Shown one piece after another: positions 12,708 to 36,537 of a stretch of 64,000 bases of DNA. The translations under genes were made by a program, and so were the position numbers. Numbering within the stretch: position 1 is the stretch's first letter; every line of letters starts with the position of its first letter. This stretch comes from Micromonospora halotolerans (GTDB taxonomy: Bacteria; Actinomycetota; Actinomycetes; Mycobacteriales; Micromonosporaceae). The notes under the pieces are model-generated. The model searched no databases. It worked only from the letters and a program-made list of their open reading frames with translations, and was not told the origin of the DNA. The DNA lies in contig NZ_CP134876.1 in NCBI RefSeq assembly GCF_032108445.1, positions 2,294,001 to 2,358,000 of the forward strand, written 5' to 3'.

Positions 12708-12724
12708 GCGTCGAGACTAACACT

Positions 12725-12739
12725 GGAACGGATCGTTCC
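12725..12739. promoter_or_regulatory. TetR operator, N5 type (divergon 1)
   Basis: GGAAC-GGATC-GTTCC, a perfect dyad with 5-bp arms (6-bp arms if a 3-bp spacer is used). It ends 17 bp from the TetR start codon. The same GGAAC-N5-GTTCC dyad lies 17 bp from the start of the paralogous TetR gene (36506-36520). Confidence 0.8.
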
Positions 12740-12753
12740 GCTCTGTTACAGTG

Positions 12754-12776
12754 GAACGGAACGAATCATTCCGTTC
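12754..12776. promoter_or_regulatory. TetR operator, N7 type (divergon 1)
   Basis: GAACGGAA-N7-TTCCGTTC, perfect 8-bp arms, ending 13 bp before the epoxide hydrolase ATG, so binding should block its promoter or transcript start. The same element, with 9-bp arms, is found at 36468-36492 in the second TetR divergon. Confidence 0.8.
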
Positions 12777-12789
12777 TGGAGGAGCAGTC

Positions 12790-13926
12790 ATGACGGACAC
12801 CGCCATCCGCCCGTACCGCGTCGAGATTCCGCAGGCCGCGCTGGACGACCTCGCCGACCGGCTGCGCCGGACCAACTGGCCCGGCGAGCTGCCCGGCGTC
12901 GGCGGCGCCTACGGCATGGCGACGGACCGGGTCCGCGAGCTGGCGACGTACTGGTTGGAGAAGTTCGACTGGCGGGCGGTCGAGGCACGACTGAACGCCC
13001 ACCCGCAGTTCGTCACCGGGATCGACGGCGAGGAGATCCACTTCCTGCACGTCCGGTCGTCCCGGCCGGACGCCACCCCGCTGGTGCTCACCCACGGCTG
13101 GCCCGGCTCGGTGGTCGAGTACCTCGACGTGATCGCCCCGCTCACCGAGCCGGCCGACCCGGATGCGCCGGCGTTCCACCTGGTGATCCCGTCGCTGCCC
13201 GGCTTCGGCTTCTCCGGTCCGACCCGCAGCGCCGGCTGGAACCGCTACCGCACCGCCCGCGCCTGGGCGACGCTGATGGCCCGCCTCGGCTACGACCGGT
13301 ACGGCGCGGTCGGCAACGACGCCGGCTCGATGATCTCGCCCGAACTGGGCCGCCTCGACGCGGACCACGTGCTCGGCGTGCACGTCACCCAGCTCTTCTC
13401 CTTCCCGTCCGGCGACCCGGTCGAGTTCCAGGGGCTCTCCGCGGCCGACCAGGCCGCGATGCGGCACCTCCAGTGGTTCGTGGAGAACAAGTTCTCCTTC
13501 AACCAGGTGCAGAGCCAGCAGCCGCAGACCCTGGCGTTCGCGCTGGCCGACTCGCCGGTCGGCCTGCTGGCCTGGAACGGGCAGCTGCTCGACGAGAGCC
13601 TCGACCCGGACTTCGTCCTGGCCAACGTCGCGATCTACTGGTTCACCGGCACGGCCGCCTCGGCGATGCGGTTCTACTGGGAGGACGCGCACGCCACCGA
13701 GCAGCCGGCCGGACCGACCACGGTGCCGACCGCGGTGGCGATGTTTCCCGGCGACTTCCAGTCGATCCGCCGGTTCGCCGACCGGGACCACGCCAACATC
13801 GTCAGCTGGCACACCTTCGACGCCGGACCCGAGCGGCAGGGGGACGTCGGCGGCCACTACGCCGCGCACGAGGCGACCGACCTGCTGGTCGGCGACATCC
13901 GGCAGTTCTTCGCCGGGCTCCACTGA
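12790..13926 (+). CDS. Epoxide hydrolase (alpha/beta-hydrolase, EHN-type)
   Basis: A 378-residue protein of the microsomal-type epoxide hydrolase family, which opens epoxides to diols through an aspartyl ester. It has an N-terminal EHN domain (1-110, with RLRRTNWPGELPGVGGAYG), the oxyanion-hole motif HGWPGS (about 99-104), and the nucleophile elbow GNDAGS (about 175-180) carrying the catalytic Asp. A late His in FADRDH or GHYAAHE completes the charge relay. There is no signal peptide, so it is cytosolic. The ATG has a GGAGGAG site. Its divergent TetR neighbour probably represses it; natural substrate unknown. Confidence 0.9.
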   Translation: MTDTAIRPYRVEIPQAALDDLADRLRRTNWPGELPGVGGAYGMATDRVRELATYWLEKFDWRAVEARLNAHPQFVTGIDGEEIHFLHVRSSRPDATPLVLTHGWPGSVVEYLDVIAPLTEPADPDAPAFHLVIPSLPGFGFSGPTRSAGWNRYRTARAWATLMARLGYDRYGAVGNDAGSMISPELGRLDADHVLGVHVTQLFSFPSGDPVEFQGLSAADQAAMRHLQWFVENKFSFNQVQSQQPQTLAFALADSPVGLLAWNGQLLDESLDPDFVLANVAIYWFTGTAASAMRFYWEDAHATEQPAGPTTVPTAVAMFPGDFQSIRRFADRDHANIVSWHTFDAGPERQGDVGGHYAAHEATDLLVGDIRQFFAGLH

Positions 13927-13937
13927 ACCCTCGACGT

Positions 13938-13972
13938 GTTCGTCGCCGGGCCGGAGCAGCCCGGCGACGAAC
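13938..13972. terminator. Bidirectional terminator hairpin
   Basis: Perfect 14-bp stem (13938-13951 with 13959-13972) and 7-base loop, placed exactly between the convergent stops of the epoxide hydrolase and the lipoprotein gene. No U-run, as is common in high-GC actinobacteria. Confidence 0.8.
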
Positions 13973-13974
13973 CG

Positions 13975-15084
13975 TCAGCCCTCGTCCAGCACCACCCGGA
14001 CCCAGCGCCGGTTCGCCGTCCAGCCCGTGCCGAGCACCACGTCGTCCGGGCCCCGGGCGGCGATCGTGCCCTCCCCCAGGACCGTGAGGTGGTGCTCGGA
14101 GGTGAGCGGCCAGTCCACCCGGTAGTAGCGGCCGCCGGCCACCACACCCACCCCACCCGGGCCGGTCACCGCCACCAGCTCGGCGCCGAGCGGCGCCACC
14201 GAGCGGGCCTGCGCGGGATGCCCGACGGCGCGGACCGGCGCCCACTCCGGGCCACCCACCAGCCGCCAGAGCGCCGGGAAACCCGCCCGGTCCGGGCGCT
14301 CCCCGACCAGCCAGGCGCCGCCGTCCGGTGCGATCACCACCCGCAGCACCCCCACCTCGTCACCCCGCCAGGACAGCGGCGTCGACACCCAGTGCCGGCC
14401 ACCGTCCCGCGACACCGCGGCCGAGGGACGGCCGTCGCGCGCGCCGGCCGCCACCACCAGGTCGCCCGAGTGACCGACGGTGTTCAGCCCCGGTACGGCC
14501 GGCTGGACGGGCAACGGCCGCAGGGTGGCGCCGTCCCGCTCGGCCACCGCACCGAGCCCCTCGGCCACCTGGAAGCGGCCCCGGGCCGCCACCAGAGCCG
14601 CCGGCTCCCCGCCGGTCGTGTGGGCGAAGGTGGCACCGCCGTCGGTCGAGGTGTACCAGCCGTACGGCTCGGCGAGCAGCACCAGCGCCCCCGGCACGGC
14701 GTAGAGCTGCTGGTTCACCGCCACCGGACGAGGGTGCCGCAGGGCCCGCCAGCTACGGCCACCGTCCCCGGTGGCGTACAGGAGGGCGGCGGGGCACCCC
14801 CCGGCGGGCGGCGGGTCGTCGCAGGCGGCGACGAAGAGGGCGTACCCGTGGTCGGCGTCGACGAACTCCACGAACGGGCGGTCGTACCGGCGGTCGACGG
14901 CGACCCGGACGTGCCGTACCTCGTCGAAGCCGACCGGCCGCGACGGCACCAGCGCGGTCGGCGCGGGACGCGGGGACGCGGACGACCGGTCGGGTGGGGT
15001 CCGGCGGACGTCGCCGATCGAGCAGGCGGCCAGGGCCGGCACCAGCAGCAACCCGGTGGTCCGGAGCACGCGGCGACCGATCAT
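13975..15084 (-). CDS. Secreted lipoprotein with BNR/Asp-box repeats
   Basis: A 369-residue lipoprotein: signal peptide 1-20 ending in the lipobox LAAC with Cys21, a Pro/Ser-rich linker, then a predicted beta-propeller with repeated Asp-box units (ATGDGGRSW, STDGGATF, SRDGGRHW). Asp boxes occur in sialidases and in many photosystem-assembly or exo-alpha-like propellers; no sialidase arginine triad is obvious, so enzymatic activity is not claimed. It should be anchored on the outer face of the membrane. It is divergent from the K+/H+ antiporter genes with only 34 bp between start codons. Confidence 0.83.
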   Translation of the reverse strand: MIGRRVLRTTGLLLVPALAACSIGDVRRTPPDRSSASPRPAPTALVPSRPVGFDEVRHVRVAVDRRYDRPFVEFVDADHGYALFVAACDDPPPAGGCPAALLYATGDGGRSWRALRHPRPVAVNQQLYAVPGALVLLAEPYGWYTSTDGGATFAHTTGGEPAALVAARGRFQVAEGLGAVAERDGATLRPLPVQPAVPGLNTVGHSGDLVVAAGARDGRPSAAVSRDGGRHWVSTPLSWRGDEVGVLRVVIAPDGGAWLVGERPDRAGFPALWRLVGGPEWAPVRAVGHPAQARSVAPLGAELVAVTGPGGVGVVAGGRYYRVDWPLTSEHHLTVLGEGTIAARGPDDVVLGTGWTANRRWVRVVLDEG

Positions 15085-15118
15085 GGGGCCCCTCCTCCGC
15101 GACGGTAGCCTTGCGCGG

Positions 15119-15619
15119 GTGCGAGTACGTGTTGAACAGACTGCCCTACCGGGGATCGGCGTCCGTCACGATCTGATGACGGAATCCGGCCGCCGGCTCG
15201 GCGTGGTCTCCCACCGCAATGGCCGCCGCGACCTGGTCCTCTACGACCCGGACGATCCCGACTCCTGTCAACACGACATCCCGCTGACCGACGACGAGGC
15301 GGAGGCCCTGGCCGACATCCTCGGCGCGTCGCTGATGCTCGGCCAGCTCGCCGGGCTGCGCGAGCAGGCCGCGGGGCTGCTCACCGAGCAGATCGCCATC
15401 CCGGCCGGCTCCCGCTACGTCAACCGGCGGCTCGGTGACACCAAGGCACGGACGCGCACCAGCGCCTCCATCGTGGCGGTGCTGCGTCAGGGCGAGGTGA
15501 TCGTCTCGCCCGATCCCACCTTCCGGTTCGCGGCCGGTGACGTGGTCGTCGTGGTCGGCACCCGCCAAGGGCTCGACGGGGTCACCGCGATCCTCGCCGA
15601 AGCCGACCCGGACGGCTGA
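15119..15619 (+). CDS. KhtT-like regulatory subunit of a K+/H+ antiporter (RCK_C domain)
   Basis: A 166-residue cytosolic protein with an N-terminal domain of about 80 residues and a C-terminal RCK_C/TrkA_C domain (about 95-160: SRYVNRRLGDTKARTR, FRFAAGDVVVVVGT). It matches KhtT, the nucleotide- and pH-sensing subunit that gates KhtU in Bacillus. The GTG at 15119 gives MRVRVEQTALPGIGVRHD, the usual KhtT beginning. Seven bases separate its stop from the antiporter ATG, so the two form an operon. Confidence 0.88.
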   Translation: MRVRVEQTALPGIGVRHDLMTESGRRLGVVSHRNGRRDLVLYDPDDPDSCQHDIPLTDDEAEALADILGASLMLGQLAGLREQAAGLLTEQIAIPAGSRYVNRRLGDTKARTRTSASIVAVLRQGEVIVSPDPTFRFAAGDVVVVVGTRQGLDGVTAILAEADPDG

Positions 15620-15626
15620 GGCGCGG

Positions 15627-16835
15627 ATGCACGAATCCACCACGCTGCTCGTCGAGGTCGGCGCGCTGCTGCTCCTGCTCGGCCTGCTCGGCCGGCTCAG
15701 CCGCCGCGTCGGCGTCTCGCCCATCCCCCTCTACCTGCTCGCCGGACTCGCCTTCGGCCACGGCGGCCTGCTGCCGCTCAACGCCAGCGAGGAGTTCTTC
15801 GCCGTCGGCGCGGAGATCGGCGTCATCCTGCTGCTCGTCATGCTCGGCCTGGAATACAGCGCCAACGAACTGGTGGGCAACCTCCGCTCGGCCGCGCCGG
15901 CCGGCCTGATCGACGCGGTGTTCAACGCACTGCCCGGCTTCGCCTTCGCCCTGCTGCTCGGCTGGGGCTGGGTGGCCGCCGTCGTGCTCGCCGGCGTCAC
16001 CTGGGTCTCGTCGTCCGGCGTGATCGCGAAGGTGCTCGGCGACCTGGGCCGGGTCGGTAACCGGGAGACCCCGGTGATCCTCTCCGTCCTCGTCATCGAG
16101 GACCTGGCCATGGCCCTCTACCTGCCGCTGGTCACCGCGCTGCTCGCCGGGGTCGGCCTGGTCAAGGGCGGCATCGCGCTCGCCGTCGCGGTGCTCACCG
16201 TGGTCGTCGTGCTGGCCGTCGCCATCCGGTACGGGCACCTGATCTCCGCCGCGCTCTCCGCGAAGGACCCCGAGGCGCTCCTGCTCGGGGTGCTCGGCCT
16301 GACCCTGCTGGTCGCCGGGGTGGCGGCCAAGCTCCAGGTCTCCGCCGCGGTCGGCGCGTTCCTGGTCGGCATCGCCCTGTCCGGGCCGGTGGCACACCAC
16401 GCCACCCAGCTGCTGTCCCCGCTGCGGGACCTCTTCGCCGCGGTCTTCTTCGTCTTCTTCGGCCTGGTCACCGACCCGCTGGACATGCCGCCGGTGCTGC
16501 TGCCCGCGCTGCTGCTGGCCGTGGTGACCATGGGAACGAAGCTGGCCACCGGTTGGCTGGCCGCCCGCCGGGCCGGGATCGCCGAGCCCGGCCGGTGGCG
16601 CGCCGGCTTCGCGCTGACCCCGCGCGGCGAGTTCTCCATCGTCATCGCCGGCCTGGCCGTCGCCGCGGCGTACCCGGTCGAACCCCGGCTGGCGGCGCTC
16701 GCCACCGCGTACGTGCTGATCACCGTGGTGACCGGGCCGATGCTGGCCCGCCTGCCCGACCTGCCCTGGTTCAAGCGCTGGCTGCGCCGGCGCAGCGCCG
16801 CCCGGCCGCCCGTGCCGGTGGGGGCGGCCGACTGA
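15627..16835 (+). CDS. CPA2-family cation/H+ antiporter (KhtU-like)
   Basis: A 402-residue integral membrane protein of about 12 helices, of the monovalent cation:proton antiporter-2 family. Typical features are the amphipathic start RRVGVSPIPLYLLAGLAFG, LLLVMLGLEYS, VTWVSSSGVIAKVLGDLGR (the unwound TM4-like region), IEDLAMALYLPL with the ion-binding acidic residue, and TPRGEFSIVIAGLA. Unlike KefB and KefC it lacks its own C-terminal RCK domain, which is supplied in trans by the KhtT-like subunit upstream. Expected role: K+ efflux and pH or osmotic balance. Confidence 0.9.
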   Translation: MHESTTLLVEVGALLLLLGLLGRLSRRVGVSPIPLYLLAGLAFGHGGLLPLNASEEFFAVGAEIGVILLLVMLGLEYSANELVGNLRSAAPAGLIDAVFNALPGFAFALLLGWGWVAAVVLAGVTWVSSSGVIAKVLGDLGRVGNRETPVILSVLVIEDLAMALYLPLVTALLAGVGLVKGGIALAVAVLTVVVVLAVAIRYGHLISAALSAKDPEALLLGVLGLTLLVAGVAAKLQVSAAVGAFLVGIALSGPVAHHATQLLSPLRDLFAAVFFVFFGLVTDPLDMPPVLLPALLLAVVTMGTKLATGWLAARRAGIAEPGRWRAGFALTPRGEFSIVIAGLAVAAAYPVEPRLAALATAYVLITVVTGPMLARLPDLPWFKRWLRRRSAARPPVPVGAAD

Positions 16836-16839
16836 CCTC

Positions 16840-16879
16840 GGCCGGGCCGGGTCGGCCGTACGGTGGACCCGGCCCGGCC
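16840..16879 (+). terminator. Terminator of the khtTU-like operon
   Basis: Perfect 14-bp stem (16840-16853 with 16866-16879) around a 12-base loop, starting four bases after the antiporter stop codon. Confidence 0.75.
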
Positions 16880-17005
16880 AACGGTTGCCGAATTGATTCC
16901 GGGAAGGTCTACCGCCACCCGGCGAAACCGCGTTAACGTGTCGCCCCAGCAGCCAGGGTCCGCGGGTGGCCGGTGCCCCCGCCAGCGTAAGCGGAAGGTC
17001 GGCCG

Positions 17006-17434
17006 GTGAGCGTGCAGGAAGAGACGTTCCACGGCTTCGCCAACCCCGTCGATCCCTCGCCCGCCGAGCTGAGGTCGTGGGCCTACCAGCCGGATTCCGT
17101 CCCGCTGACCTCCATGCCGCCGGACTGGGACCTGCTGGTCGCCGGGGACCACCTGGTGCAGACCCTCTTCGACCTGGCCATGGACCCGGCCTGTCCGGCC
17201 CGCCGGTTCGCCCTGCACTGCCTCTACATCTACGCCGCCGACGGCATCCGGACGAACTTCCGGGCCCACCCGAAGCGCCGCTTCCGCAAGCTCGTGGAGC
17301 AGGCCGAGCGGGCCGGCGACGAGCTGATGCGCAACTGGGCGCACAACAGCCGCGTGCTGCTCGCCCGGCCGGACCTCTTCGTCTACCGGGACTGGTGCGA
17401 GGGCGGCCTGGTGCGGGAGAACCGGCGGCTCTAG
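17006..17434 (+). CDS. Conserved actinobacterial protein of unknown function
   Basis: A 142-residue soluble protein, not recognised. It is rich in aromatic residues and has a helical core: DWDLLVAGDHLVQTLFDLAMD, RRFALHCLYIYAADGIRTNF and RAGDELMRNWAHNSRVLL. Start is GTG with GGAAGG twelve bases upstream. It has its own upstream region of about 125 bp after the khtTU terminator, so it is probably monocistronic. Composition is normal for the genome, suggesting a resident gene of the lineage. Confidence 0.72.
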   Translation: MSVQEETFHGFANPVDPSPAELRSWAYQPDSVPLTSMPPDWDLLVAGDHLVQTLFDLAMDPACPARRFALHCLYIYAADGIRTNFRAHPKRRFRKLVEQAERAGDELMRNWAHNSRVLLARPDLFVYRDWCEGGLVRENRRL

Positions 17435-17593
17435 CTCTTGCTTCTCTGTGTGGGGGGTGTGGCCCCACCGTGCCCGGCTCCGGGCGGTCAGGCTTGATCC
17501 CTGCGCCGGTCACGGCGGGGTCACACCTACCTCCGTGGCTCGCCGCCGGGCTTCGTGGGATTGATCTCCTGTGTCCCGCCCTGGGAAGGCGAA

Positions 17594-17624
17594 CGGGCCG
17601 GGACCCCCCGTGGGTCCCGGCCCG
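17594..17624 (-). terminator. Terminator hairpin
   Basis: Perfect 13-bp stem (17594-17606 with 17612-17624) and 5-base loop, 16 bases beyond the stop of the small gene at 17641-17850 in its direction of transcription. Confidence 0.75.
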
Positions 17625-17640
17625 CACGTCGGCGGATCGT

Positions 17641-17850
17641 TCAGCCGGTCGATCCGCCCTGCTTCCGGCGCCGCTCGTCGTCCCTGGCGCGGTCGACGCC
17701 GTGGTCCACCTGGTCCCCGAAGCGCCCTTCCCTGATCTTTTCGGTGAAGCCACCGTCGGTGATCCGGTCGAATCGCTCCCGGACGTTCTCGGCCACCTGC
17801 TCCAGCCGTTCCTCCGCCCGTTCCGCCACCTTCTTCGCCGATTCCGCCAT
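17641..17850 (-). CDS. Small charged coiled-coil protein (MT0933-antitoxin-like)
   Basis: A 69-residue, highly charged protein beginning MAESAKKVAERAEERLEQ. It is predicted helical and coiled-coil in the first 45 residues, followed by GRFGDQVDHGVDRARDDERRRK. The pattern of a helical Lys/Glu stretch plus a QVD-x-G-VD-x-A motif resembles the MT0933-type antitoxin family, but no toxin gene is adjacent, so the label stays tentative. The ATG at 17850 has a GGGGGAG site; the longer frame from 17901 does not. Confidence 0.65.
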   Translation of the reverse strand: MAESAKKVAERAEERLEQVAENVRERFDRITDGGFTEKIREGRFGDQVDHGVDRARDDERRRKQGGSTG

Positions 17851-17972
17851 GGCTCCCCCTGCCAGTTCGGAGGCCGAATTGAGTCGGTTGGCCGCATTCA
17901 CAGGCTAGCGAAACCGGCCCTCCCGGATCCGGCTTTCCCCCGAACCGCACCGCCTGCCGGCGGGATGGAATG

Positions 17973-18018
17973 CGCGAAGGCCGGCGCGGCCCGGGGTGGG
18001 CGCGCGCCGGCCTTCGCG
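17973..18018 (-). terminator. Terminator of the dnaK-grpE-dnaJ-hspR operon
   Basis: Perfect 16-bp stem (17973-17988 with 18003-18018) and 14-base loop, starting 11 bases past the hspR stop. Confidence 0.8.
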
Positions 18019-18029
18019 GCGGGGAAAAA

Positions 18030-18470
18030 TCAGCGGTCGGGGGTCCGGCGGGGACGCCAGACGACGAGCGCGGTGGAGGTGCGGTTGGTGGGGACGAGGT
18101 CGCCACGGGCGAAGCCGCCCAACGACTCCAGCTCGGCGATCCGGCGGTACGCGGCGTCCAGCTCCGCCTCCAGCCGGGCCACCCGCCGCTGGGCCTCCTC
18201 CAGCAACCGCTCCAGGTGGATGATCCGCTTGACCCCGGCCAGGTTGATCCCGTCGTCCTGGCTGAGTCGCTGCACCTCGCGGAGCAGCACCACGTCCCGG
18301 ACGCTGTAGCGGCGACCGCCGCCGGCCGCCCGGCCGGCCTGCACGAGGCCCAGCCGGTCGTACTGGCGCAGCGTCTGCGGGTGCATCCCCGCCATCCGGG
18401 CCGCCACCGAGATCATCAGAACCTTGGCCTCGTAGGCAGGGTCACCCGAGCCGACGAACTCCTGTGACAT
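18030..18470 (-). CDS. hspR: Heat-shock repressor HspR (MerR family)
   Basis: A 146-residue MerR-type protein. The winged helix-turn-helix spans about 18-85 (VAARMAGMHPQTLRQYDRLGLV, then GRRYSVRDVVLLREVQRLS), followed by a coiled coil (about 90-120) and a basic tail. HspR represses dnaK and clpB operons and uses DnaK as co-repressor; when DnaK is titrated by unfolded proteins, repression lifts. It is last in its own operon, 31 bases after dnaJ. Matching operators precede dnaK (22509-22527) and clpB (12025-12047), supporting the name. Confidence 0.95.
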   Translation of the reverse strand: MSQEFVGSGDPAYEAKVLMISVAARMAGMHPQTLRQYDRLGLVQAGRAAGGGRRYSVRDVVLLREVQRLSQDDGINLAGVKRIIHLERLLEEAQRRVARLEAELDAAYRRIAELESLGGFARGDLVPTNRTSTALVVWRPRRTPDR

Positions 18471-18501
18471 CCCCGCTCACCTCCGCTGCCTCGTCACCCG
18501 G

Positions 18502-19683
18502 TCAACTGAATCGACGCACCCGCGCGTCGAGATGTTCCCGCGCGGCCGGCGGGGTCTGCTCGGCGAACGTCTCCAGCGCCGCCCGCGCCTCGTCAGACAG
18601 CGTCGCGGGGACCACCACGTCGAGGGTGACCAGCAGGTCACCGGCGCGGCCGTCCCGGCGTACGACGCCCTTGCCCCGGGCGCGCAGCACCCGGCCGCTG
18701 GGCGTGCCCGGCGGCACCCGCAGCGTCACCGTGCCGTCCAGGGTCGGCACCCTCAGGTCGGTGCCGAGCACCGCCTCCGCGAACGTGATCGGCACGGTCA
18801 GGGTCAGGTCGTCCCCGGTGCGCCCGAACAGCTCGTCCGGGCGGACCTTCACGTGCACGAACAGGTCGCCCGCCGGGCCGCCCCGCTCGCCGGGCTCACC
18901 CCGCCCGGCCAGCCGGATGCGCTGGCCGTCGGCCACCCCGGCCGGGAAGCGCACGTTCAGCGTGCGGGTCTTGGTGACCCCGCCGGTGCCGTGGCACTCC
19001 GGGCACTTCTCCTCGACGACCGTGCCCACGCCCTGGCAGTTGCGGCACGGCTCGGAGAAGCTGAACGACCCCTGGTTGCGGGTGGTCACCCCGGCGCCGT
19101 GGCAGACCGGGCAGGCCACCGGCTGGGTGCCCGGCTTCGCCCCGTTGCCGTGGCAGGTCTCGCAGACCCCGGGGGCACGCAGCGTCAACGGCAGGGTGAC
19201 GCCGCGGACCGCGTCGGGGAAGTCCAGCGCCACCTCGGTCTCGACGTCCCGGCCCCGGGCCGGGCCGCGCGGACGGGCCGCGGCGCCGGCGCCCCCGCCC
19301 GTGAAGATCGAGCTGAACAGGTCGCCCAGGCCACCGCCGCCGAACCGGGCCTCGCCGCCGCCCGCCCCGCCGAACAGGTCGGACACGTCGAACGGCATGC
19401 CACCGGGCTGGCCCGCGCCGCGGGCGTTGCGCCGGAAGGCGCCGGAGCCGAAGAGCGACCGCATCTCGTCGTACTCGCGACGCTTCTTCTCGTCGCCCAG
19501 CACGGCGTACGCCTCGGAGACGGCCTTGAACCGCTCCTCGGCCTTCGGGTCACCGGGGTTGTGGTCCGGGTGCGACTCCCGAGCCAGCTTCCGGTACGAC
19601 TTCTTGATCTCGTCCGAGGAGGCGGACTTCTCCACGCCCAGCGCGGCGTAGTAGTCCTTCTCGATCCAGTCCTTGGAACTCAC
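18502..19683 (-). CDS. dnaJ: Chaperone protein DnaJ
   Basis: A 393-residue type I DnaJ. It has a J domain (about 8-75) with the HPD motif that stimulates the DnaK ATPase, a Gly-rich linker, a zinc domain with four CxxCxGxG-type repeats (CETCHGNG, CPVCHGAG, CRNCQGVG, CPECHGTG), and C-terminal substrate-binding beta domains. The GTG at 19683 (VSSKDWIEKDYY) is the family start; six upstream residues in frame are dispensable. It lies 79 bp after grpE, with a hairpin in the gap. Confidence 0.96.
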   Translation of the reverse strand: MSSKDWIEKDYYAALGVEKSASSDEIKKSYRKLARESHPDHNPGDPKAEERFKAVSEAYAVLGDEKKRREYDEMRSLFGSGAFRRNARGAGQPGGMPFDVSDLFGGAGGGEARFGGGGLGDLFSSIFTGGGAGAAARPRGPARGRDVETEVALDFPDAVRGVTLPLTLRAPGVCETCHGNGAKPGTQPVACPVCHGAGVTTRNQGSFSFSEPCRNCQGVGTVVEEKCPECHGTGGVTKTRTLNVRFPAGVADGQRIRLAGRGEPGERGGPAGDLFVHVKVRPDELFGRTGDDLTLTVPITFAEAVLGTDLRVPTLDGTVTLRVPPGTPSGRVLRARGKGVVRRDGRAGDLLVTLDVVVPATLSDEARAALETFAEQTPPAAREHLDARVRRFS

Positions 19684-19717
19684 CGGTCCACCCCCTTCCA
19701 CGGGACGTACCCCGGTC

Positions 19718-19748
19718 GTCCCGCCCGCCCGGGGTGGGCGGGCGGGAC
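19718..19748 (-). other. Hairpin in the grpE-dnaJ gap
   Basis: Perfect 13-bp stem (19718-19730 with 19736-19748) and 5-base loop, between the grpE stop and the dnaJ start. Being inside the operon, it more likely tunes transcript levels (partial termination or an RNase-protected end) than ends the operon. Confidence 0.6.
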
Positions 19749-19762
19749 GTCACGGGTCGGCA

Positions 19763-20521: not shown

Positions 20522-20570
20522 GCGGCTACCTCATCCCTCTCGCGGCGAGAAACGTGTCCGGGACCGAAGG

Positions 20571-22430
<1,860 letters not shown>

Positions 22431-27440: not shown

Positions 27441-27455
27441 CCCGCCGGGAGCGGA

Positions 27456-28235: not shown

Positions 28236-28717
28236 ACTCCTCGTACGCGTCGACAGGGCGGGATCCCGGCGCAGGCTTAAACGGACAAATGCCTCAAGGG
28301 GACCACCGTCAGCTTGAACCAGTGACGCTCAGTTCACCAGCCACCACAGCGTGTCGACACACAAATTGTCCGTCCCGTGACGGCGGCACACCAGACAAAC
28401 GTGTCAATGCGTCGCGAACACGACGGAACGTCACCGGTGGAGGAGGCCGTACTGTGGGCCCGCTCACCTCCTCTGCAATCATTCAGGCACGACGGCAACG
28501 CAGCCGCCACCTCCGCGCACCCCGCGGCTGGTGCGGTACGGCGCCGGCGCTCCCGGGTCGGGCTCCTCAACGGGACCCGGCTCACGCCGCGCGGCAACCC
28601 TCACCGGGGCTAGGCGCGGCCGCCAGGGACCGGTCCGGCACCAGCCGGGTCGGGCGCACGATGTGCGCGGCACGGGTCACCCCCCGACGCCGGCGCAGAC
28701 CAGACAGGGAGAGACGG
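28236..28717. other. Long intergenic region upstream of the 2-oxoacid dehydrogenase operon
   Basis: 482 bp without a convincing gene, less GC-rich than its flanks. The E1alpha reading frame stays open through it, but its translation is compositionally non-protein-like. It contains a 10-bp palindrome GTGTCGACAC (28351-28360) and CGGACAA at 28282-28288 with its inverse TTGTCCG at 28366-28372. It should hold two divergent promoters and the pdh leader; I cannot name the regulator. Confidence 0.5.
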
Positions 28718-29896: not shown

Positions 29897-30885
29897 TGGC
29901 CACGGAGACGCTCACCCTCGGCAAGGCCCTCAACGCCGGCCTGCGCAAGGCCCTGGAGAACGACCCGAAGGTCGTCATCATGGGCGAGGACGTCGGCAAG
30001 CTCGGCGGCGTGTTCCGCATCACCGACGGCCTCCAGAAGGACTTCGGCGACCAGCGGGTGATCGACACCCCGCTCGCCGAGTCCGGCATCATCGGCACCG
30101 CGGTCGGCCTGGCCATCCGCGGCTTCCGGCCGGTCTGCGAGATCCAGTTCGACGGCTTCGTCTACCCGGCGTACGACCAGATCGTGTCGCAGGTGGCGAA
30201 GATGCACTACCGCTCGCAGGGCAAGGTGCGGATCCCGATGGTCATCCGGATCCCCTACGGCGGTGGCATCGGCGCGGTCGAGCACCACTCGGAGTCGCCC
30301 GAGGCGTACTTCGCGCACACCGCCGGCCTGAAGGTCGTCACCTGCGCGAACCCGCAGGACGGCTACTCGATGATCCAGCAGGCCATCGCCTCCGACGACC
30401 CGATCGTCTTCCTGGAGCCGAAGCGGCGCTACTGGGAGAAGGGTCCGGTCGAGCTGGACGCCCCGCTGACCGACGCGTATCCGCTGCACGCCGCGCGGGT
30501 CGCCCGGCCGGGCACCGACGCCACCGTGCTGGCGTACGGCCCGATGGTGCGCACCGCCCTGGACGCGGCCACCGCCGCCGCCGAGGACGGCCGGGAGCTG
30601 GAGGTCATCGACCTGCGCACGCTCTCCCCGCTGGACCTGACCGCCGCGTACGAGTCGGTGAAGCGCACCGGCCGCTGCGTGGTCGTCCACGAGGCCCCGG
30701 GCAACCTGGGTCTCGGGTCGGAGATCGCCGCCCGGATCACCGAGGAGTGCTTCTACTCCCTGGAATCCCCGGTGCTGCGGGTCACCGGCTTCGACACCCC
30801 CTACCCGGCCGCCCGGGTGGAGGAGGAGTACCTGCCCGACCTCGACCGGGTGCTCGACGCCGTCGACCGCACCTTCGGCTGGTGA
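29896..30885 (+). CDS. pdhB: 2-oxoacid dehydrogenase E1 beta subunit
   Basis: A 329-residue partner of E1alpha forming the alpha2beta2 decarboxylase. Family motifs: MGEDVGKLGGVFRIT, DTPLAESGIIGTAVGLA with the TPP-contacting Glu, EIQFDGFVYPAYDQIVSQ, IRIPYGGGIGAVEHHS, and the C-terminal transketolase-like domain (VIDLRTLSPLD, VHEAPGNLGLG). Translation begins in the TGATG overlap. Five bases after its stop the E2 gene begins. Confidence 0.92.
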   Translation: MATETLTLGKALNAGLRKALENDPKVVIMGEDVGKLGGVFRITDGLQKDFGDQRVIDTPLAESGIIGTAVGLAIRGFRPVCEIQFDGFVYPAYDQIVSQVAKMHYRSQGKVRIPMVIRIPYGGGIGAVEHHSESPEAYFAHTAGLKVVTCANPQDGYSMIQQAIASDDPIVFLEPKRRYWEKGPVELDAPLTDAYPLHAARVARPGTDATVLAYGPMVRTALDAATAAAEDGRELEVIDLRTLSPLDLTAAYESVKRTGRCVVVHEAPGNLGLGSEIAARITEECFYSLESPVLRVTGFDTPYPAARVEEEYLPDLDRVLDAVDRTFGW

Positions 30886-30890
30886 GCGGC

Positions 30891-32342
30891 ATGTCACGGA
30901 TCAAGGAATTCAACCTCCCCGACCTGGGCGAGGGCCTGACCGAGGGCGAGATCCTCGCCTGGCTGGTCAAGGTGGGCGACGACATCGAGCTGAACCAGCC
31001 GATCGTCGAGGTGGAGACCGCCAAGGCGGCGGTCGAGATCCCGGCGAAGTGGGCCGGCCGGGTGCAGGCGATCTTCCACCCGGAGGGCGCCACGGTCGAG
31101 GTCGGCAGCCCGATCATCGCGATCGACACCGACCCGAACGCCGGGCCGATCGAGCAGTCGACGACCGGTGCGCCGGCCGCCGACCTGCCCACCCCGTCGG
31201 CGGCGTCGCTGGCCGCCGTCGAGGTCGCGCCCGAGGAGGGCATGGTCGAGCCGGGCCTGATCGGCGGCGTGGCGCCGGGCGGGCGTACCGCGGTACTGGT
31301 CGGCTACGGCCCGCGGAACGCGCCGGCCAAGCGCCGGCCGCGCAAGGGCGGCGTCCCGGCCCAGGCCGCGGCGGCCCCGGTCCAGCCGGCACCCGCGCCG
31401 GTCGTTCCGGCACCGGCTGCCCCGGCGGTCAACGGCAACGGCCGGGTGACCGGCGCCGTGCTGGCCAAGCCGCCGGTGCGCAAGCTCGCCAAGGACCTGG
31501 GCGTCGACCTCGCCACGCTGACCGGGTCGGGCCCGCTGGGCTCGATCACCCGGGAGGACGTACAGCGGGCGGCGGCGGCCCCGGCGGCGGCCGAGCCGCT
31601 GACGGTCGCGACGCCGGCCACGGCGGCCGCGAGCTTCGGCGCCGACCGCGAGCAGCGCATCCCGGTCAAGGGGGTACGCAAGCTCACCGCGGAGAACATG
31701 GCCCGCTCGGCGTTCACCGCGCCGCACGTCACGGAGTTCCTGACCGTGGACGTGACCCGGGCGATGAAGGCCCTGGACCGGCTCCGCGAGCGGCGCGAGT
31801 GGCGGGACGTGCGGGTCTCGCCGCTGCTGCTGGTCGCGAAGGCGGTGCTGCTGGCGGTCAAGCGCCACCCGATGGTCAACTCGACCTGGGCCGGCGACGA
31901 GATCGTGGTCAAGGACTACGTGAACCTGGGCATCGCGGCGGCCACCGAGCGTGGCCTGATCGTGCCGAACATCAAGGACGCCGGCCGGCTCTCGCTGCGC
32001 GAGCTGGCGGACGCGATGACCGCGCTCGTCCAGACCGCCAAGGCGGGGAAGACCTCGCCGGCCGACATGTCCGGCGGCACGCTGACCATCACCAACGTCG
32101 GCGTCTTCGGCGTCGACACCGGCACCCCGATCCTGCCTCCGGGCGAGTCCGCGATCCTCGCCTTCGGCGCGGTGCGGGAGCAGCCCTGGGTGCACAAGGG
32201 CAAGGTCAAGCCGCGCCTGGTCACCACGCTGGGCCTCTCCTTCGACCACCGGATCATCGACGGTGAGCTCGGCTCGAAGTTCCTCCGCGACATCGGGGAC
32301 TTCCTGGCCGATCCGGAGGCGGCGCTGCTCGCCTGGACCTGA
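30891..32342 (+). CDS. pdhC: Dihydrolipoyl acyltransferase E2 component
   Basis: A 483-residue E2 core enzyme that takes the acyl group from E1 and passes it to CoA. One lipoyl domain (1-80) with the lipoylated Lys in VETAKAAVEI, a linker with Ala/Pro-rich segments, a peripheral-subunit-binding domain (about 193-230: VRKLAKDLGVDLATL, SITREDV), and the catalytic acetyltransferase domain ending with DHRIIDGELG, which carries the active-site His and Asp. E3 is not in this window, so the complex must use a distant lipoamide dehydrogenase. Confidence 0.92.
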   Translation: MSRIKEFNLPDLGEGLTEGEILAWLVKVGDDIELNQPIVEVETAKAAVEIPAKWAGRVQAIFHPEGATVEVGSPIIAIDTDPNAGPIEQSTTGAPAADLPTPSAASLAAVEVAPEEGMVEPGLIGGVAPGGRTAVLVGYGPRNAPAKRRPRKGGVPAQAAAAPVQPAPAPVVPAPAAPAVNGNGRVTGAVLAKPPVRKLAKDLGVDLATLTGSGPLGSITREDVQRAAAAPAAAEPLTVATPATAAASFGADREQRIPVKGVRKLTAENMARSAFTAPHVTEFLTVDVTRAMKALDRLRERREWRDVRVSPLLLVAKAVLLAVKRHPMVNSTWAGDEIVVKDYVNLGIAAATERGLIVPNIKDAGRLSLRELADAMTALVQTAKAGKTSPADMSGGTLTITNVGVFGVDTGTPILPPGESAILAFGAVREQPWVHKGKVKPRLVTTLGLSFDHRIIDGELGSKFLRDIGDFLADPEAALLAWT

Positions 32343-32362
32343 CGGTCGCATCGCACCAGGCC

Positions 32363-32403
32363 ACGGCCGGTGTGCACGGGTGAACGCCCGGCACACCGGC
32401 CGT
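32363..32403 (+). terminator. Terminator of the pdhABC operon
   Basis: Perfect 13-bp stem (32363-32375 with 32391-32403) around a 15-base loop that can itself pair, starting 20 bases past the E2 stop. Confidence 0.78.
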
Positions 32404-32565
32404 TGCCGTTGGGGAAAGGAAACGTCGGCTCAACGGGGCTCCCGGCCTACGATCCTTAGGCACGTGGCTCAGCTCACCTAAGAATCGATGGAAGTTCGCG
32501 ACGTTCTGGGGTTCAATAGAGACATCAAGGGGCTGACAACCGAATAGCCAGGAGGAGAGACCCAG

Positions 32566-32703
32566 ATGAGCATGATCGAGCGAATCCGCAACCGCCGCGA
32601 CGCCAACCGCCGCGCCCGTGCCATCGAGCACGCGCTGCGTTCCGCCAACTCGCCGGCCGTCCGCGAGGAGCTTCTCGCCATCGCCCAGCGTCACATGAGC
32701 TGA
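32566..32703 (+). CDS. 45-residue basic small protein
   Basis: An ATG with a near-perfect GGAGGAG site opens 45 codons: MSMIERIRNRRDANRRARAI, then EHALRSANSPAVREELLAIA and QRHMS. The protein is strongly helical, Arg-rich in the first half and acidic-amphipathic in the second. It sits alone between two strong terminators with about 160 bp of upstream DNA, so it is a single-gene transcript. From memory, proteins of this type recur in Micromonosporaceae and Streptomyces; function unknown, possibly nucleic-acid- or ribosome-binding. Confidence 0.78.
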   Translation: MSMIERIRNRRDANRRARAIEHALRSANSPAVREELLAIAQRHMS

Positions 32704-32734
32704 CGCTCCCCGACTTTCCTCACCTCCTCCAGTT

Positions 32735-32768
32735 CGAAGACCCGCCCGGGCAACCGGGCGGGTCTTCG
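32735..32768. terminator. Terminator after the 45-residue gene
   Basis: Perfect 15-bp stem (32735-32749 with 32754-32768) with the tetraloop GCAA, a classical stable GNRA loop. It lies 31 bases past the stop codon. Between here and the next gene (to 33052) I see no further gene. Confidence 0.85.
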
Positions 32769-32994
32769 GCGTCTCACGTCGATTGACACCGGGATTCCAC
32801 CTCGCCGCACCGCCCGGTACGGTGGGGCTCGGTCGCCAACCGCCCGCCTCCGGACCGATCGCCTTCGAGAGCAACCGATCGATACCGTCCGGTGACGTTC
32901 GGTGACGGCCGGTGCTCCCCCGGGCGCCTCCGGGCGGCCACCGGATACGGTGCGGGGAGCCCGCACGGCCGGTACCCGCCGGCGACTCCGGCAG

Positions 32995-33021
32995 CGATGC
33001 CGACGGTCCCGATCGGCATCG
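32995..33021 (+). promoter_or_regulatory. Small hairpin in the leader of the 922-residue membrane protein gene
   Basis: Perfect 9-bp arms (32995-33003 and 33013-33021) with a 9-base loop, ending about 15 bases before the GGAGGAG ribosome binding site. It could affect translation or be a protein-binding dyad; no family is recognised. Confidence 0.4.
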
Positions 33022-33052
33022 GCGGCCGACATGTGATGGAGGAGGCGCACCC

Positions 33053-35821
33053 ATGACGTCCGAGGCCCCGCACCGCCCCGGCCAGGAGCCGGGCGAGGTG
33101 TCGCCGGGCGCCGGCGGACCGGTGCCGTACGGCGACCGCCCGGCGCAGCAGGACAACGGGTACGGCGCACCCGACCTCGGCTGGGCCCCGCCCCCGCCGG
33201 CCGGTCGGCCCGCCCAGCCCGCCCCCGCCTGGGCCGCGGCCGACGACCAGCCCCCCGCCTGGACACCGCCGGGCGGCCAGCCCGCCGCCGGCCGGGCCAC
33301 CGCGCAGGTGCCGCCGCCGGCCGAGCCGGGCGGCTGGAGCCCCGCCTCGCAGCCCGCCTGGGCCGCTCCGGAGCAGTCCGCCCCGTCCTGGGGCGGGCCG
33401 GACCAGGGAGCACCCGCCTGGGGCGCGCCCGAGCAGGCCGACGCCCACCGCGGCGCCGAGCCCGGGCCGTCCGCCTGGGCCGCCGCCCCACCGCACAACC
33501 CCACCGAGTCGACCCCGCCGGCCTGGGGCGCCCCGGCGGCGGCCGGCGAGCAGCCGGCCTGGGCGCAGGCCGGCGACCCCGGTGCCCGCGGCGCCGCCCA
33601 CGTGCCCGCGCCCGCCACCGTCCCGAACGAGTCGTGGGCCACCCCCGCCGGGCAGGACGACCCGAACCGGTCCGGTGGGTGGAACCCGCCGACCGGTCAG
33701 CAGGACGACGACCCGGGCCGCTCCGGCGGCTGGCGCGCGGCGCAGGAGGACAACTCCGGCGGTTGGGCCGTCGGGGCCGCCGCCCAGCAGCAGGACGACC
33801 GGCCCGCCTGGGGCCAGCAGGGCGAGCAGGCCGCTCCCGGCTGGACGCCGGCCGAGCCGACCGCGCGCGCGGCCGCCAAGGTCTCGGTCCCGGGCGCCGT
33901 CCGCCCGGAGGGTGCCTGGTCCAGCCAGGACCACCAGGGCCAGGCCGCGAGCTGGCAGAACGGCCCGAACGCCACGCACGGCGACGACCAGGGCCAGGCC
34001 CCGAGCTGGCAGAACGGCCCGAACGCCACGCACGGCGACGACCAGGGTCAGGCCGCGAGCTGGCAGAACGGCTCGGCGACGCAGGACGACGACCCGGACC
34101 GCTCCGGTGGCTGGGCCGCGGGCCGGTCCGCCGGCGGCGCTGAGGCGCCGCAGCAGGCCGCCTGGGGTGCGCCGGAGGAGCAGCGCCCGTCCGCCGCGTG
34201 GAGCGGCGCCGCGGCGGTGCCGCAGCAGCGTGAGCCGGAGCAGCCGGCGGACGAGCCGGCGCAGCCCGGCTGGGGTTCCGCCGCCGTCCCGGCACCGGCC
34301 GAGGCGCGGGCCAGCGCGTCCGTCCCGTCCCCCGACTCGCCGCCCGCCTGGGGCGGCAACCAGGACAACCCGGGGCAGTGGACGCGCGACCGTCCGGCCA
34401 TCCCGGAGGCCGAGCCGTGGGCACCCGGCCAGGCCTGGGGCCGCGCCGCCGAGGCCCAGCCCGAGCAGTCCGCGTCGCCGGGCTGGGAGCCGGCCCGCGC
34501 CGACGACGGACCGATCTACCAGCCGGCGCCGGGCCCGGGGATCTCCCCGGCCAACGCGGTGCCGCTGCCCCCGCAGGAGCAGCGGGTGCCGGGCGCCGCC
34601 CTGGCCGCCGCACCGCCCGCCGACTATGCGCCGTTCAACCCGGGCGGCGAGCCGGGCGACCGCAACCCGCAGGCGTACGAGCCGGAACCGGCCGCCGACG
34701 CCAGCTGGGGTACGCCCGGCCCGGCGCACGACGAGCCGCAGTCACCGGCCGGGCCGGTGGTGCCCGGTCCGCGGACCTCGCCGGAGGCCGGCGCGGGCGG
34801 CGCCGTCTCGGCCAGCGCCTCGGTGCCGATGACCAGCCGGGTCACGCCGCCGGCCGACCAGCCGCTGCCCACGGGTGGCACGCCCGCCCCGCAGCCGCGC
34901 GTCTACGGCCGCCCCGCGCGGCCCGAGCGGGAGGAGGCGCCCGGGCAGGACGGCCCGAACGGCTTCGCCGAGCCGGGCCCGCACTCCCGGGCGGACGAGT
35001 CGGACCGCCAGCACGGATACGCCGAGGCGCCTCCGGTGCACTCGGCCCCGCCGTCCTCGCCGGCCGCCCCGCCGCCGTTCCCGCCCGGCGTGCCGTCCTT
35101 CGTTGACCCGCCGGGCAACAGCCGGCCGGTCAACGGGGTGCACCCGCACAACGGTGAACGCCCCGGTGGCCCGCACGATCCGTTCGGTGGCCCCGGCGGC
35201 CCGCACGAGCCGTTCGGCGCGCCCGCCGGGCACCAGGACCCGTTCGGCCCGCCCCACCGCGACCAGTTCGGCGGGCCCGGGGGCGGTGACCCGTTCGGCG
35301 GTCCGGCCGGCGGCCGCGCCTCCGTCGCCGTGCCGGGGCAGATGCCGATGGGCGAGCCGGGCGGCTTCCCGCCCGCGTTCCCGCCGCCGCCCCAGCAGGG
35401 CCCGCCGGCCTGGCCGCAGGCGGGTCAGGGCGGCGACGCGGACCAGGGCCGCTTCGAGGCGTTCAAGCCGGAGGCGGAGCCGAAGACCGAGGCGCCCACG
35501 CCGAAGGTGCGCAACGGCCGGGTGCTGGCCCTGGTGCTGATCGCCGCGGTGCTCATCCTGGCCGTGCCGCTCGGCCTGCTCACTCTGCTCGGCAAGATCG
35601 GCGGGGACGACAAGCCGGCGGGCTTCGACCCGGCGGTGGGCTCCTGCGTCAAGCAGTCCAACGCGACCGCCGTGGCGGCCGACTGCGGCGAGCAGGGGGC
35701 GTTCACCGTGGTGTCGAAGGTGGACAGCAAGGACAAGTGTGCGGACCCGGCGCAGCCCCAGGTGGTGCTTCCCGGCGACGGGTCCAACCGGGTGCTCTGC
35801 CTCAAGCCGGCCGGCCAGTAG
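33053..35821 (+). CDS. Very large low-complexity protein with one C-terminal membrane helix and a small cysteine-containing outer domain
   Basis: A 922-residue protein. Residues 1 to about 815 are low-complexity: Pro, Gly, Gln, Ala and Trp dominate, with W-G-x-P/A-type units and a near-perfect tandem repeat (SWQNGPNATHGDDQGQA, three copies around residues 300-345). A single helix follows (about 823-845: VLALVLIAAVLILAVPLGLL), then about 75 outer residues with four Cys (GSCVKQSN, ADCGEQ, DKCADP, RVLCLKPA). The outer domain recalls LppU-type proteins of Streptomyces. So the disordered part is cytoplasmic. Function unknown. The ATG has GGAGGAG upstream. Confidence 0.83.
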   Translation: MTSEAPHRPGQEPGEVSPGAGGPVPYGDRPAQQDNGYGAPDLGWAPPPPAGRPAQPAPAWAAADDQPPAWTPPGGQPAAGRATAQVPPPAEPGGWSPASQPAWAAPEQSAPSWGGPDQGAPAWGAPEQADAHRGAEPGPSAWAAAPPHNPTESTPPAWGAPAAAGEQPAWAQAGDPGARGAAHVPAPATVPNESWATPAGQDDPNRSGGWNPPTGQQDDDPGRSGGWRAAQEDNSGGWAVGAAAQQQDDRPAWGQQGEQAAPGWTPAEPTARAAAKVSVPGAVRPEGAWSSQDHQGQAASWQNGPNATHGDDQGQAPSWQNGPNATHGDDQGQAASWQNGSATQDDDPDRSGGWAAGRSAGGAEAPQQAAWGAPEEQRPSAAWSGAAAVPQQREPEQPADEPAQPGWGSAAVPAPAEARASASVPSPDSPPAWGGNQDNPGQWTRDRPAIPEAEPWAPGQAWGRAAEAQPEQSASPGWEPARADDGPIYQPAPGPGISPANAVPLPPQEQRVPGAALAAAPPADYAPFNPGGEPGDRNPQAYEPEPAADASWGTPGPAHDEPQSPAGPVVPGPRTSPEAGAGGAVSASASVPMTSRVTPPADQPLPTGGTPAPQPRVYGRPARPEREEAPGQDGPNGFAEPGPHSRADESDRQHGYAEAPPVHSAPPSSPAAPPPFPPGVPSFVDPPGNSRPVNGVHPHNGERPGGPHDPFGGPGGPHEPFGAPAGHQDPFGPPHRDQFGGPGGGDPFGGPAGGRASVAVPGQMPMGEPGGFPPAFPPPPQQGPPAWPQAGQGGDADQGRFEAFKPEAEPKTEAPTPKVRNGRVLALVLIAAVLILAVPLGLLTLLGKIGGDDKPAGFDPAVGSCVKQSNATAVAADCGEQGAFTVVSKVDSKDKCADPAQPQVVLPGDGSNRVLCLKPAGQ

Positions 35822-35872
35822 CGACTCCCACGACGGCGGGGCCACGGTGATCCGTGGCCCCGCCGTCGTTCG

Positions 35873-36451
35873 TCACCGCTGCCAGTGGGGGTCGCGACCG
35901 AGGTAGGCCAGCAGGGCGGCGACCGGGTCGGCACCGGGTTCGGTGGGCAGCGCGGCGGCGTACGCGAATCCGCGCAGCGGCTCGGCGGTCGCCCGGGCCG
36001 CCGGCATGAGCTGTGCGGCCAGCTCGGCGGTGAGCGGCGCCGGCTGCCCGGTGGCCACCGCGACGTCCCAGGCGTGGATCGCGGCGTCGAGCGCGCAGGT
36101 CGCGGCGGCGAGCTCGGGGTCCATGGTCGGCGCGGGCGGCAGCGGCGTGCCGACCGGACCGGCCGCCGAGTCGATGCCCGCCCAGGCCGCGGTGGCGGCC
36201 TCGACCGCGCTCCGCACGACGCTCTGGACGCCCTCGTCGTGGCCGCGCGGCGGGTCGAACGGGTTGTACGCCGGCATCGTGCCGGCGCCAACGGACGCCG
36301 CCCACGCGTGCTGGTCGCCGGCGGCGTGCATGAGCACCTGCCCGACGGTCCACCGGTCGCACGGCGTCGGGTCGTCGAGCCGGTCGGCCGGCACTCCCTC
36401 GGCGGTGCGGCGCAGGAGGTCGAGGGCGGTGGTGAGGACGGGAAAGCTCAC
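35873..36451 (-). CDS. TIGR03086/DinB-fold mycothiol-type enzyme (maleylpyruvate isomerase N-terminal family)
   Basis: A 192-residue protein of the DinB/MDMPI fold. The N-terminal family signature PTPCDRWTVGQVLMHAAGDQH (two stretches) includes a putative metal-binding His, with later His in ALDAAIHAWDVAVA. Relatives are mycothiol-dependent transferases or isomerases, which detoxify electrophiles; the precise reaction is unknown. It starts with GTG at 36451 with AAAGGA upstream and is divergent from a TetR gene, with paired operators between them. Position mirrors the epoxide hydrolase in the other TetR divergon. Confidence 0.82.
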   Translation of the reverse strand: MSFPVLTTALDLLRRTAEGVPADRLDDPTPCDRWTVGQVLMHAAGDQHAWAASVGAGTMPAYNPFDPPRGHDEGVQSVVRSAVEAATAAWAGIDSAAGPVGTPLPPAPTMDPELAAATCALDAAIHAWDVAVATGQPAPLTAELAAQLMPAARATAEPLRGFAYAAALPTEPGADPVAALLAYLGRDPHWQR

Positions 36452-36467
36452 GGGCCGGTCCTTTCAG

Positions 36468-36492
36468 GGAACGGAATACTTCGTTCCGTTCC
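36468..36492. promoter_or_regulatory. TetR operator, N7 type (divergon 2)
   Basis: GGAACGGAA-N7-TTCCGTTCC with perfect 9-bp arms, 16 bp upstream of the DinB-fold gene start. Same arms and spacer length as 12754-12776. Confidence 0.82.
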
Positions 36493-36505
36493 AGCTTAGC
36501 AGAAC

Positions 36506-36520
36506 GGAACGATCTGTTCC
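36506..36520. promoter_or_regulatory. TetR operator, N5 type (divergon 2)
   Basis: GGAAC-GATCT-GTTCC, perfect 5-bp arms, 17 bp from the TetR start. Spacing to the TetR gene and to the N7 element (14 bp between 8-bp-arm cores) is identical to divergon 1. Confidence 0.82.
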
Positions 36521-36537
36521 ACTGCTATGGTCGACCC

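Follow-up and report, generated by a model that had tools for sequence, protein, structure and literature searches.

Two TetR regulators and one shared two-dyad operator: a predicted detoxification regulon in Micromonospora

Introduction

According to a Streptomyces survey, TetR regulators repress their divergently transcribed neighbor when both genes lie less than 200 bp apart (PMC3511530). Two gene pairs of this kind are found in a window of 64,000 nucleotides from the complete, 6.96 Mb genome of Micromonospora halotolerans (contig NZ_CP134876.1, positions 2,294,001 to 2,358,000), which is the whole stretch of DNA analyzed here. In divergon A, the gene tetR-A stands back to back with the gene of an epoxide-hydrolase-type enzyme (hereafter hydrolase), while in divergon B, tetR-B is the divergent neighbor of dinB, which encodes a DinB-fold protein. 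Like the divergons of the survey, both consist of a TetR and an enzyme gene on either side of a short intergenic region with dyads, and since their lengths of 82 and 86 bp fit the rule given above, repression of the divergent neighbor would be expected. In contrast to the divergons of the survey, two TetRs here share a two-dyad operator that likely has targets in trans as well. With regard to possible functions, PMC5815605 describes the DinB fold as a thiol transferase and mycothiol as a means to detoxify electrophiles.

Based on comparative analysis, a real predicted regulon in which two TetRs share one operator is well supported. With a probability of roughly 0.78, we propose that this one operator, read by TetR-A or TetR-B, serves to repress two putative electrophile-detoxifying enzymes. 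The operator and its targets were not found described in the literature searched, including the accessible parts of PMC3511530, PMC8476842, PMC7413915, PMC5500506, and PMC5815605. Systems of this kind are known, and the noteworthy part is a series of natural genomes that either have or lack the second regulator.

Results

Both divergons show the identical layout that a preceding inspection of the window, based on its letters and open reading frames (the sequence-only reading), had claimed: 17 bp separate the TetR start codon from dyad 1 (the short dyad) and 14 bp separate dyad 1 from dyad 2 (the long dyad). From center to center the dyads are 33 bp apart in both regions, with region B being the mirror image of region A (Table 1). 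The two dyads represent one motif, since the long dyad contains the same 15-bp core with one mismatch. If read in the same direction, the divergent promoters A and B match at 55 of 69 bp, a likeness that extends past the dyads. Between the dyads, TGnTAnnnT would make a good extended -10 element for the enzyme gene, at a distance of 17 bp from TGGAAC at the left edge of dyad 1. The same form follows dyad 1 on the other side and ends 6 bp before the ATG of tetR, so that the tetR mRNA is probably leaderless. On the tetR side this form recurs in relatives; on the hydrolase side TAnnnT stands at the same place in 86 loci, for which the search expression itself demanded TAnnnT. Among the enzyme-linked loci, dyad 1 can be recognized in 84, and 81 of these have a dyad spacing of 32–35 bp, if the second dyad is defined as NGAAC-N5-ATTCC with at most 1 mismatch and loci without a recognizable dyad 1 or with another partner are left out. 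The remaining three comprise spacings of 37 and 40 bp and one locus without a second dyad. Among the loci outside this count, some of genus g29 have spacings of 44–46 bp, and one Micromonospora group has a better-scoring, overlapping register that lies 5 bp further along and gives 39 bp.

Within the window, the long dyad was matched three times at up to 3 mismatches, compared to 0.09 expected matches, and the whole genome contains 11 such matches vs. 2 for the control. Exact copies of the long dyad were found at the two divergons alone, while the other nine matches all have 3 mismatches, one of them being dyad 1 of B. One 3-mismatch site (L045) was rejected, as it looks unrelated. Taken by itself, the short dyad is fairly common, with 297 matches in the genome at up to 1 mismatch vs. 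199 for the control. Consequently, it was dropped as evidence for a regulon, and the regulon claims rest on dyad 1 plus the -10 element. The genome list of short dyads lacks the exact site at 2330506, which other scans show, and this omission was given no weight. In the window's genome the dyads are not common in places without TetR genes, and in relatives such sites precede the same few gene families.

Next, 151 Micromonospora genomes were searched with the genus motif, consisting of dyad 1 plus the -10 element (pattern GGAACNGATCGTTCCGNTCTGNTA, at most 2 mismatches), and for homologs of TetR-A and DinB at E<=1e-25, with 15–21 candidates scored per genome; for TetR-A this number was at most 20. 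The sequence-only reading had suggested cross-regulation that may form a joint response to electrophiles. Cross-regulation and a joint control of hydrolase and DinB are supported by genomes in which one regulator is naturally absent. G022, labeled as the same species, possesses DinB (96%), both dyads and TetR-A, but dyad 1 is followed by the thioredoxin-like gene, with no tetR-B in between. The gene tetR-B is also missing in G135, with different deletion ends, with DinB and both dyads kept and with one base of dyad 1 changed. In these two genomes tetR-A lies 22.6 kb (G022) and 23.8 kb (G135) away. Both cases fit two losses of tetR-B. Beside tetR-A, neither the hydrolase nor dyad 2 is present in G022, and the closest hydrolase of this genome is a 62% paralog that also occurs in the window's genome. 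Three further genomes, G033, G097, and G143, comprise TetR-B with DinB and gave no TetR-A match. The same dinB operator is hence found in genomes with TetR-A alone, with TetR-B alone, or with both. In G009 (L114 / L054), the operator has disappeared together with the first 24 residues of TetR-B, and DinB lies directly beside the remnant; no TetR-A match was obtained at E<=1e-25.

Alternatively, each TetR might control its own divergon only, the operators being alike through one DNA code of the subfamily and separated by small base or ligand differences. In agreement with this, the GGAACGGATC of A is replaced by GGAACAGATC in window B, G033, and G143, and the C-terminal domains of TetR-A and TetR-B diverge more than the N-termini. 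However, the A-type GGAACGGATC is found in G097, which has TetR-B but gave no TetR-A match, while the B-type GGAACAGATC persists in G022, where TetR-A is the only one of the two regulators. Moreover, 15 dinB sites of the genus are without their own TetR. Such an insulation of the two pairs is unlikely. Still less likely, dyads without an adjacent TetR could be leftovers of lost divergons that are kept as core promoter and bound by nothing. The overlap of dyad 1 with the -35 element, the missing tetR-B at two such loci, where dyad 1 is directly followed by the next gene, and the unrecognizable dyad 2 before several trans dinB genes speak in favor of this scenario. On the other hand, the parts outside the core promoter, namely the right half of dyad 1 as well as dyad 2, are intact in G022 and nearly so in G135, dyad 1 precedes trans dinB and EHN genes across genera, and G009, with a truncated TetR-B and no TetR-A found, has lost the operator, even though one deletion may explain both.

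In total, 75 motif sites were detected in 59 of the 151 genomes, compared to 0 control matches: 55 at tetR-A, 4 at tetR-B/dinB, 15 at dinB without an adjacent TetR, and 1 unassigned. The latter (G087) was set aside because it reads as sigma-factor coding sequence. A full TetR-A match was obtained 55 times and all 55 genomes contain a motif site, while any match was found in 67 genomes; the other 12 comprise TetR-B-like proteins (4), fragments (2; G085, G044), and more distant TetRs (6). The hydrolase gene adjoins tetR-A in 54 of 55 loci, with G022 as the exception. DinB homologs are present in 21 of 151 genomes, all of which have TetR-A or TetR-B (G009 the truncated TetR-B only). With TetR-A or TetR-B in 59 of 151 genomes, this co-occurrence has a hypergeometric probability of 2e-10, without correction for kinship. 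All 15 dinB genes that carry a motif site without a neighboring TetR are found in TetR-A genomes, which further supports a joint control. Seven of the 21 DinB homologs are of the window's type; the other 14 are 46–54% identical, and no TetR was found in the fetched flanks of their genes. Among these 14, the homolog of G075 is probably frameshifted, since its match is spread over two frames, and dinB of G109 has both dyads at more mismatches, outside the motif-scan count. As a side observation, the fragments in G085 (G085:C71:145024-145248, 87%) and G044 (G044:C1:971869-972051, 84%) are C-terminal parts of TetR-A. Neither genome has a motif site, and the fragments may be what is left of divergons that were lost.

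The family sample comprised 200 Micromonosporaceae genomes from 44 genera, 38 of them Micromonospora. TetR-A homologs, distant ones included, occur in 106 genomes and 22 genera at the same threshold, and depending on the genus their genes adjoin either the hydrolase or DinB, in many cases together with the same pair of dyads. The motif scan delivered 107 sites in 77 of the 200 genomes and 0 control matches, with 56 sites located at most 700 bp from a TetR, 17 at about 1.65 kb (genus g11), and 34 unlinked. Downstream of all 34 unlinked sites (31 newly fetched stretches and 3 known earlier) lies a gene for a hydrolase (EHN; 11), DinB (9), an NmrA-like reductase (12), or a VOC-like protein (2). 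The name VOC-like is a reading from sequence, as L348 has no NCBIfam match. Among the 17 sites of the 1.65-kb class, 6 were examined and all 6 precede an MFS transporter gene; the names NmrA-like and MFS are each based on one identified protein, with the others grouped by blastp. A tblastn search with 12 diverse TetRs found no TetR in the unlinked stretches, which mostly reach about 350–480 bp upstream of the site (shortest 181 bp). In all ten genomes, four of them Micromonospora, that combine a hydrolase or DinB in cis with an EHN or DinB site in trans, the trans gene encodes the other enzyme (tabulated by hand). This exchange of cis and trans positions across genera also supports a joint control. 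In genus g11, 12 unlinked sites precede NmrA-like genes (L336, L339, L342, L344, L345, L347, L349, L352-L356), which would widen the regulon in that genus.

A different regulator with the same site, such as another TetR paralog, could control the trans genes instead. Many TetR paralogs exist per genome, with nine further ones in the window's genome at E<=1e-5, and G298 has a motif site before an NmrA-like gene and no TetR match at E<=1e-25. In contrast, the nine paralogs are at most 42% identical, and apart from the coding one, all genus sites (at most 2 mismatches) are restricted to genomes with TetR-A or TetR-B. We consider this scenario the least probable of all discussed here.

Beyond the family, 394 genomes of the class were scanned at up to 1 mismatch, a sample that includes three Micromonospora and no other family member. 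Beyond the genus, a site was detected in five genomes, twice in a TetR/hydrolase divergon and once at a lone hydrolase; of the other two, L390 reads as coding and L393 is of undecided context. In addition, distant TetRs with 36–44% identity to TetR-A (L251-L263, L288-L292) have a similar layout with CGGAGC half-sites, some with two dyads, and the genes that follow read from sequence as MFS, alcohol-dehydrogenase-like, or SnoaL-like. The layout may be a trait of the subfamily.

A quick tree was calculated from 105 TetRs, from which most rows of Micromonospora and g11 had been removed beforehand, along with fragments, truncated copies, duplicate entries, and two records of a plasmid collection. 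A clade of 61 rows (SH-aLRT 99) unites TetR-A with its relatives, while TetR-B belongs to a separate clade of 7 rows (100). Six end branches were flagged as long, and the 61-row clade contains two of these (L199, L203). Among the 102 inner branches, 38 are not resolved. Partner changes amount to 7 for DinB (at least 3 forced by starred branches) and 12 for the hydrolase (at least 6). Judged by these separate clades and partner changes, the duplication into TetR-A and TetR-B is old and partners have been exchanged repeatedly. Furthermore, the recognition helix correlates with the half-site: helices ending in ALYRR go along with GGAAC-only dyads in 108 rows vs. 4 others, while S/TLYRR is linked to GGAGC or mixed dyads in 14 rows vs. 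1 GGAAC-only (Fisher P 3e-14, without correction for kinship). No dyad was assigned for 31 ALYRR and 3 S/TLYRR rows, and 7 rows are without a recognizable helix. Both TetR-A and TetR-B carry ALYRR.

The claim that the N-termini of both regulators are near-identical was found to be true for the recognition helix, but not for the domain overall, in which 49 of 68 aligned N-terminal columns are identical. TetR_N scored 34.4 and 35.1 bits (cut-off 24), whereas the SbtR-like C-terminal domain (PF21597) places TetR-A above the cut-off of 27 bits (35.2) and TetR-B just below it (25.3). Named relatives of TetR-B were found in M. chaiyaphumensis, M. fulviviridis, and Micromonospora sp. AMSO31t. Next to tetR-B, the gene of a thioredoxin-like long protein (window 37182-39080; NCBIfam ResA match) may overlap the tetR-B end by 4 bp and may be translated together with it; this gene stays where tetR-B is missing.

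As the sequence-only reading had stated, the neighboring enzymes differ. Both exceed the cut-offs of their family models. The hydrolase matches PF06441 with 127.3 bits (cut-off 22.8) and PF00561 with 42.8 bits (cut-off 25.8), the DinB protein TIGR03086 with 105 bits (cut-off 83) and PF11716 with 42.6 bits (cut-off 24.2). Over nearly its whole length, the hydrolase resembles the EHN-type epoxide hydrolases PDB 5f4z and 4i19. Aligned to 5f4z, it possesses Asp177, Asp322, and His356, which we take to be the nucleophile, the acid, and the histidine of the catalytic triad. Of the two presumably epoxide-polarizing tyrosines of such enzymes, Tyr296 is kept, while the other is replaced by Phe237. As a separate observation, 12 of 69 hydrolase sequences (L187, L198, L200, L202, L204, L205, L207-L212; 11 from genus g29, one from G166) show Asp177->Gly and His356->Asn, plus Gly103->Asp; lacking catalytic residues, they are apparently dead enzymes kept beside the same TetR in its divergon. 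In the DinB protein, His42, Asp122, and His126, presumably metal ligands, are invariant among 37 of 37 sequences. A PDB sequence search with this protein delivered no significant match to a solved structure. The TIGR03086 and MDMPI_N matches and the invariant His/Asp/His are shared with mycothiol maleylpyruvate isomerase and the DinB/S-transferase-like thiol transferases (PMC5815605). The window protein is placed there by sequence. From these family relations, we infer that both enzymes might remove electrophiles.

Table 1. Features of the two divergons, given as window positions
Feature	Position	Strand	Remarks	Basis
TetR-A, 213 aa	12066..12707	-	TetR_N and SbtR-like C domain; recognition helix GVGISALYRR	ORF (open reading frame); Pfam PF00440 and PF21597 above cut-off
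tetR-A putative -10, TAGTCT	12714..12719	-	extended by TG; 6 bp before ATG	inferred
Hydrolase promoter, putative -35, TGGAAC	12724-12729		left half of dyad 1	sequence
TetR-A divergon, dyad 1, GGAAC-N5-GTTCC	12725..12739			sequence scan of window
Hydrolase promoter, putative -10, TACAGT	12747..12752	+	after TGT; 17 bp from -35	inferred
TetR-A divergon, dyad 2, GAACGGAA-N7-TTCCGTTC	12754..12776		core 12758-12772; over likely transcription start	sequence
Epoxide-hydrolase-type enzyme, EHN + alpha/beta hydrolase, 378 aa	12790..13926	+	ATG at 12790	ORF, Pfam
DinB-fold TIGR03086 / mycothiol maleylpyruvate isomerase N-domain protein, 192 aa	35873..36451	-	GTG start	ORF, Pfam, NCBIfam
TetR-B divergon, dyad 2, GAACGGAA-N7-TTCCGTTC	36469..36491		core 36473-36487	sequence
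dinB promoter, putative -10, TAAGCT	36493..36498	-	after TGC	inferred
TetR-B divergon, dyad 1, GGAAC-N5-GTTCC	36506..36520			sequence scan of window
dinB promoter, putative -35, TGGAAC	36516-36521		17 bp from -10	inferred
tetR-B putative -10, TATGGT	36526..36531	+	after TGC; 6 bp before ATG	inferred
TetR-B, 215 aa	36538..37185	+	52% identical to TetR-A	ORF, Pfam

Discussion

One might envision the following mode of action, in which binding, repression, ligand, and promoter elements are all deduced from sequence. Dyad 1 would cover the -35 element and the spacer of the enzyme promoter, just upstream of the -10 element of tetR, followed by the -10 element of the enzyme gene and by dyad 2 over its start site. 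With the support of another dimer on dyad 2, a TetR dimer bound to dyad 1 could then block the enzyme gene as well as its own gene; the dyad distance corresponds to about three helical turns and would place both dimers on the same face of the DNA. A ligand, probably an electrophile or a product of one, would release TetR, and an electrophile is a plausible signal. Because TetR-A and TetR-B have the same recognition helix, each should read both units, and hydrolase and DinB would belong to the same small regulon. In relatives, one TetR alone would control the enzyme gene next to it as well as that of the other enzyme in trans, and the second TetR can be missing from a genome that retains its operator.

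Several aspects weigh against this proposal. Instead of losses in G022 and G135, the window's lineage might have gained TetR-B. Absence in our surveys means that no match reached the threshold among the candidates scored per genome, and the genus and family counts ignore shared ancestry. Two loci were counted twice among the 108 ALYRR rows, and the 31 ALYRR TetRs are without a recognizable dyad in the 150 bp examined, although at least 17 of them stem from genus g11 with its distant site, and the start was misjudged in some of the remaining ones. As the -35 element lies within dyad 1, part of the retention of this dyad may reflect promoter conservation, and dyad 2 is absent or unrecognizable before several trans dinB genes (L333, L334, L343, L362). 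Epoxide hydrolysis by the window hydrolase is unsure, since Phe237 stands where 5f4z has one of the two expected tyrosines; this phenylalanine is found in 67 of 69 sequences compared. Finally, an ancient duplication of regulator plus operator had been suggested earlier. This suggestion is only partly supported: the regulators fall into separate clades, and for the three B-like TetRs fetched from other genera (L246-L248) no dyad was detected at up to 1 mismatch, which argues against a simple joint inheritance of regulator and operator. The common operator may thus have been captured rather than inherited with the duplication.

Going beyond the two divergons, operators might outlive their regulators. 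A fixed cassette of dyad, -10 element, and dyad would then be common to unrelated detoxification genes of the Micromonosporaceae, and local divergons would fuse into one regulon once the resident repressor is deleted and its role passes to a paralog with the same DNA code. Such a fusion would probably have happened twice near the window's lineage (G022, G135), with the window representing the stage at which both repressors are present. We regard this broader scenario as slightly favored over its negation.

Taken together, Micromonospora would provide a naturally replicated case of small-regulon formation, with genomes of the same species that have or lack the second repressor while the operator is kept. 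For proteins without known substrates, namely the hydrolase and the DinB enzyme and, in one genus, the products of NmrA-like, VOC-like, and MFS genes, a regulon is predicted. In addition, a simple rule that links recognition helix and half-site is predicted for this TetR subfamily.

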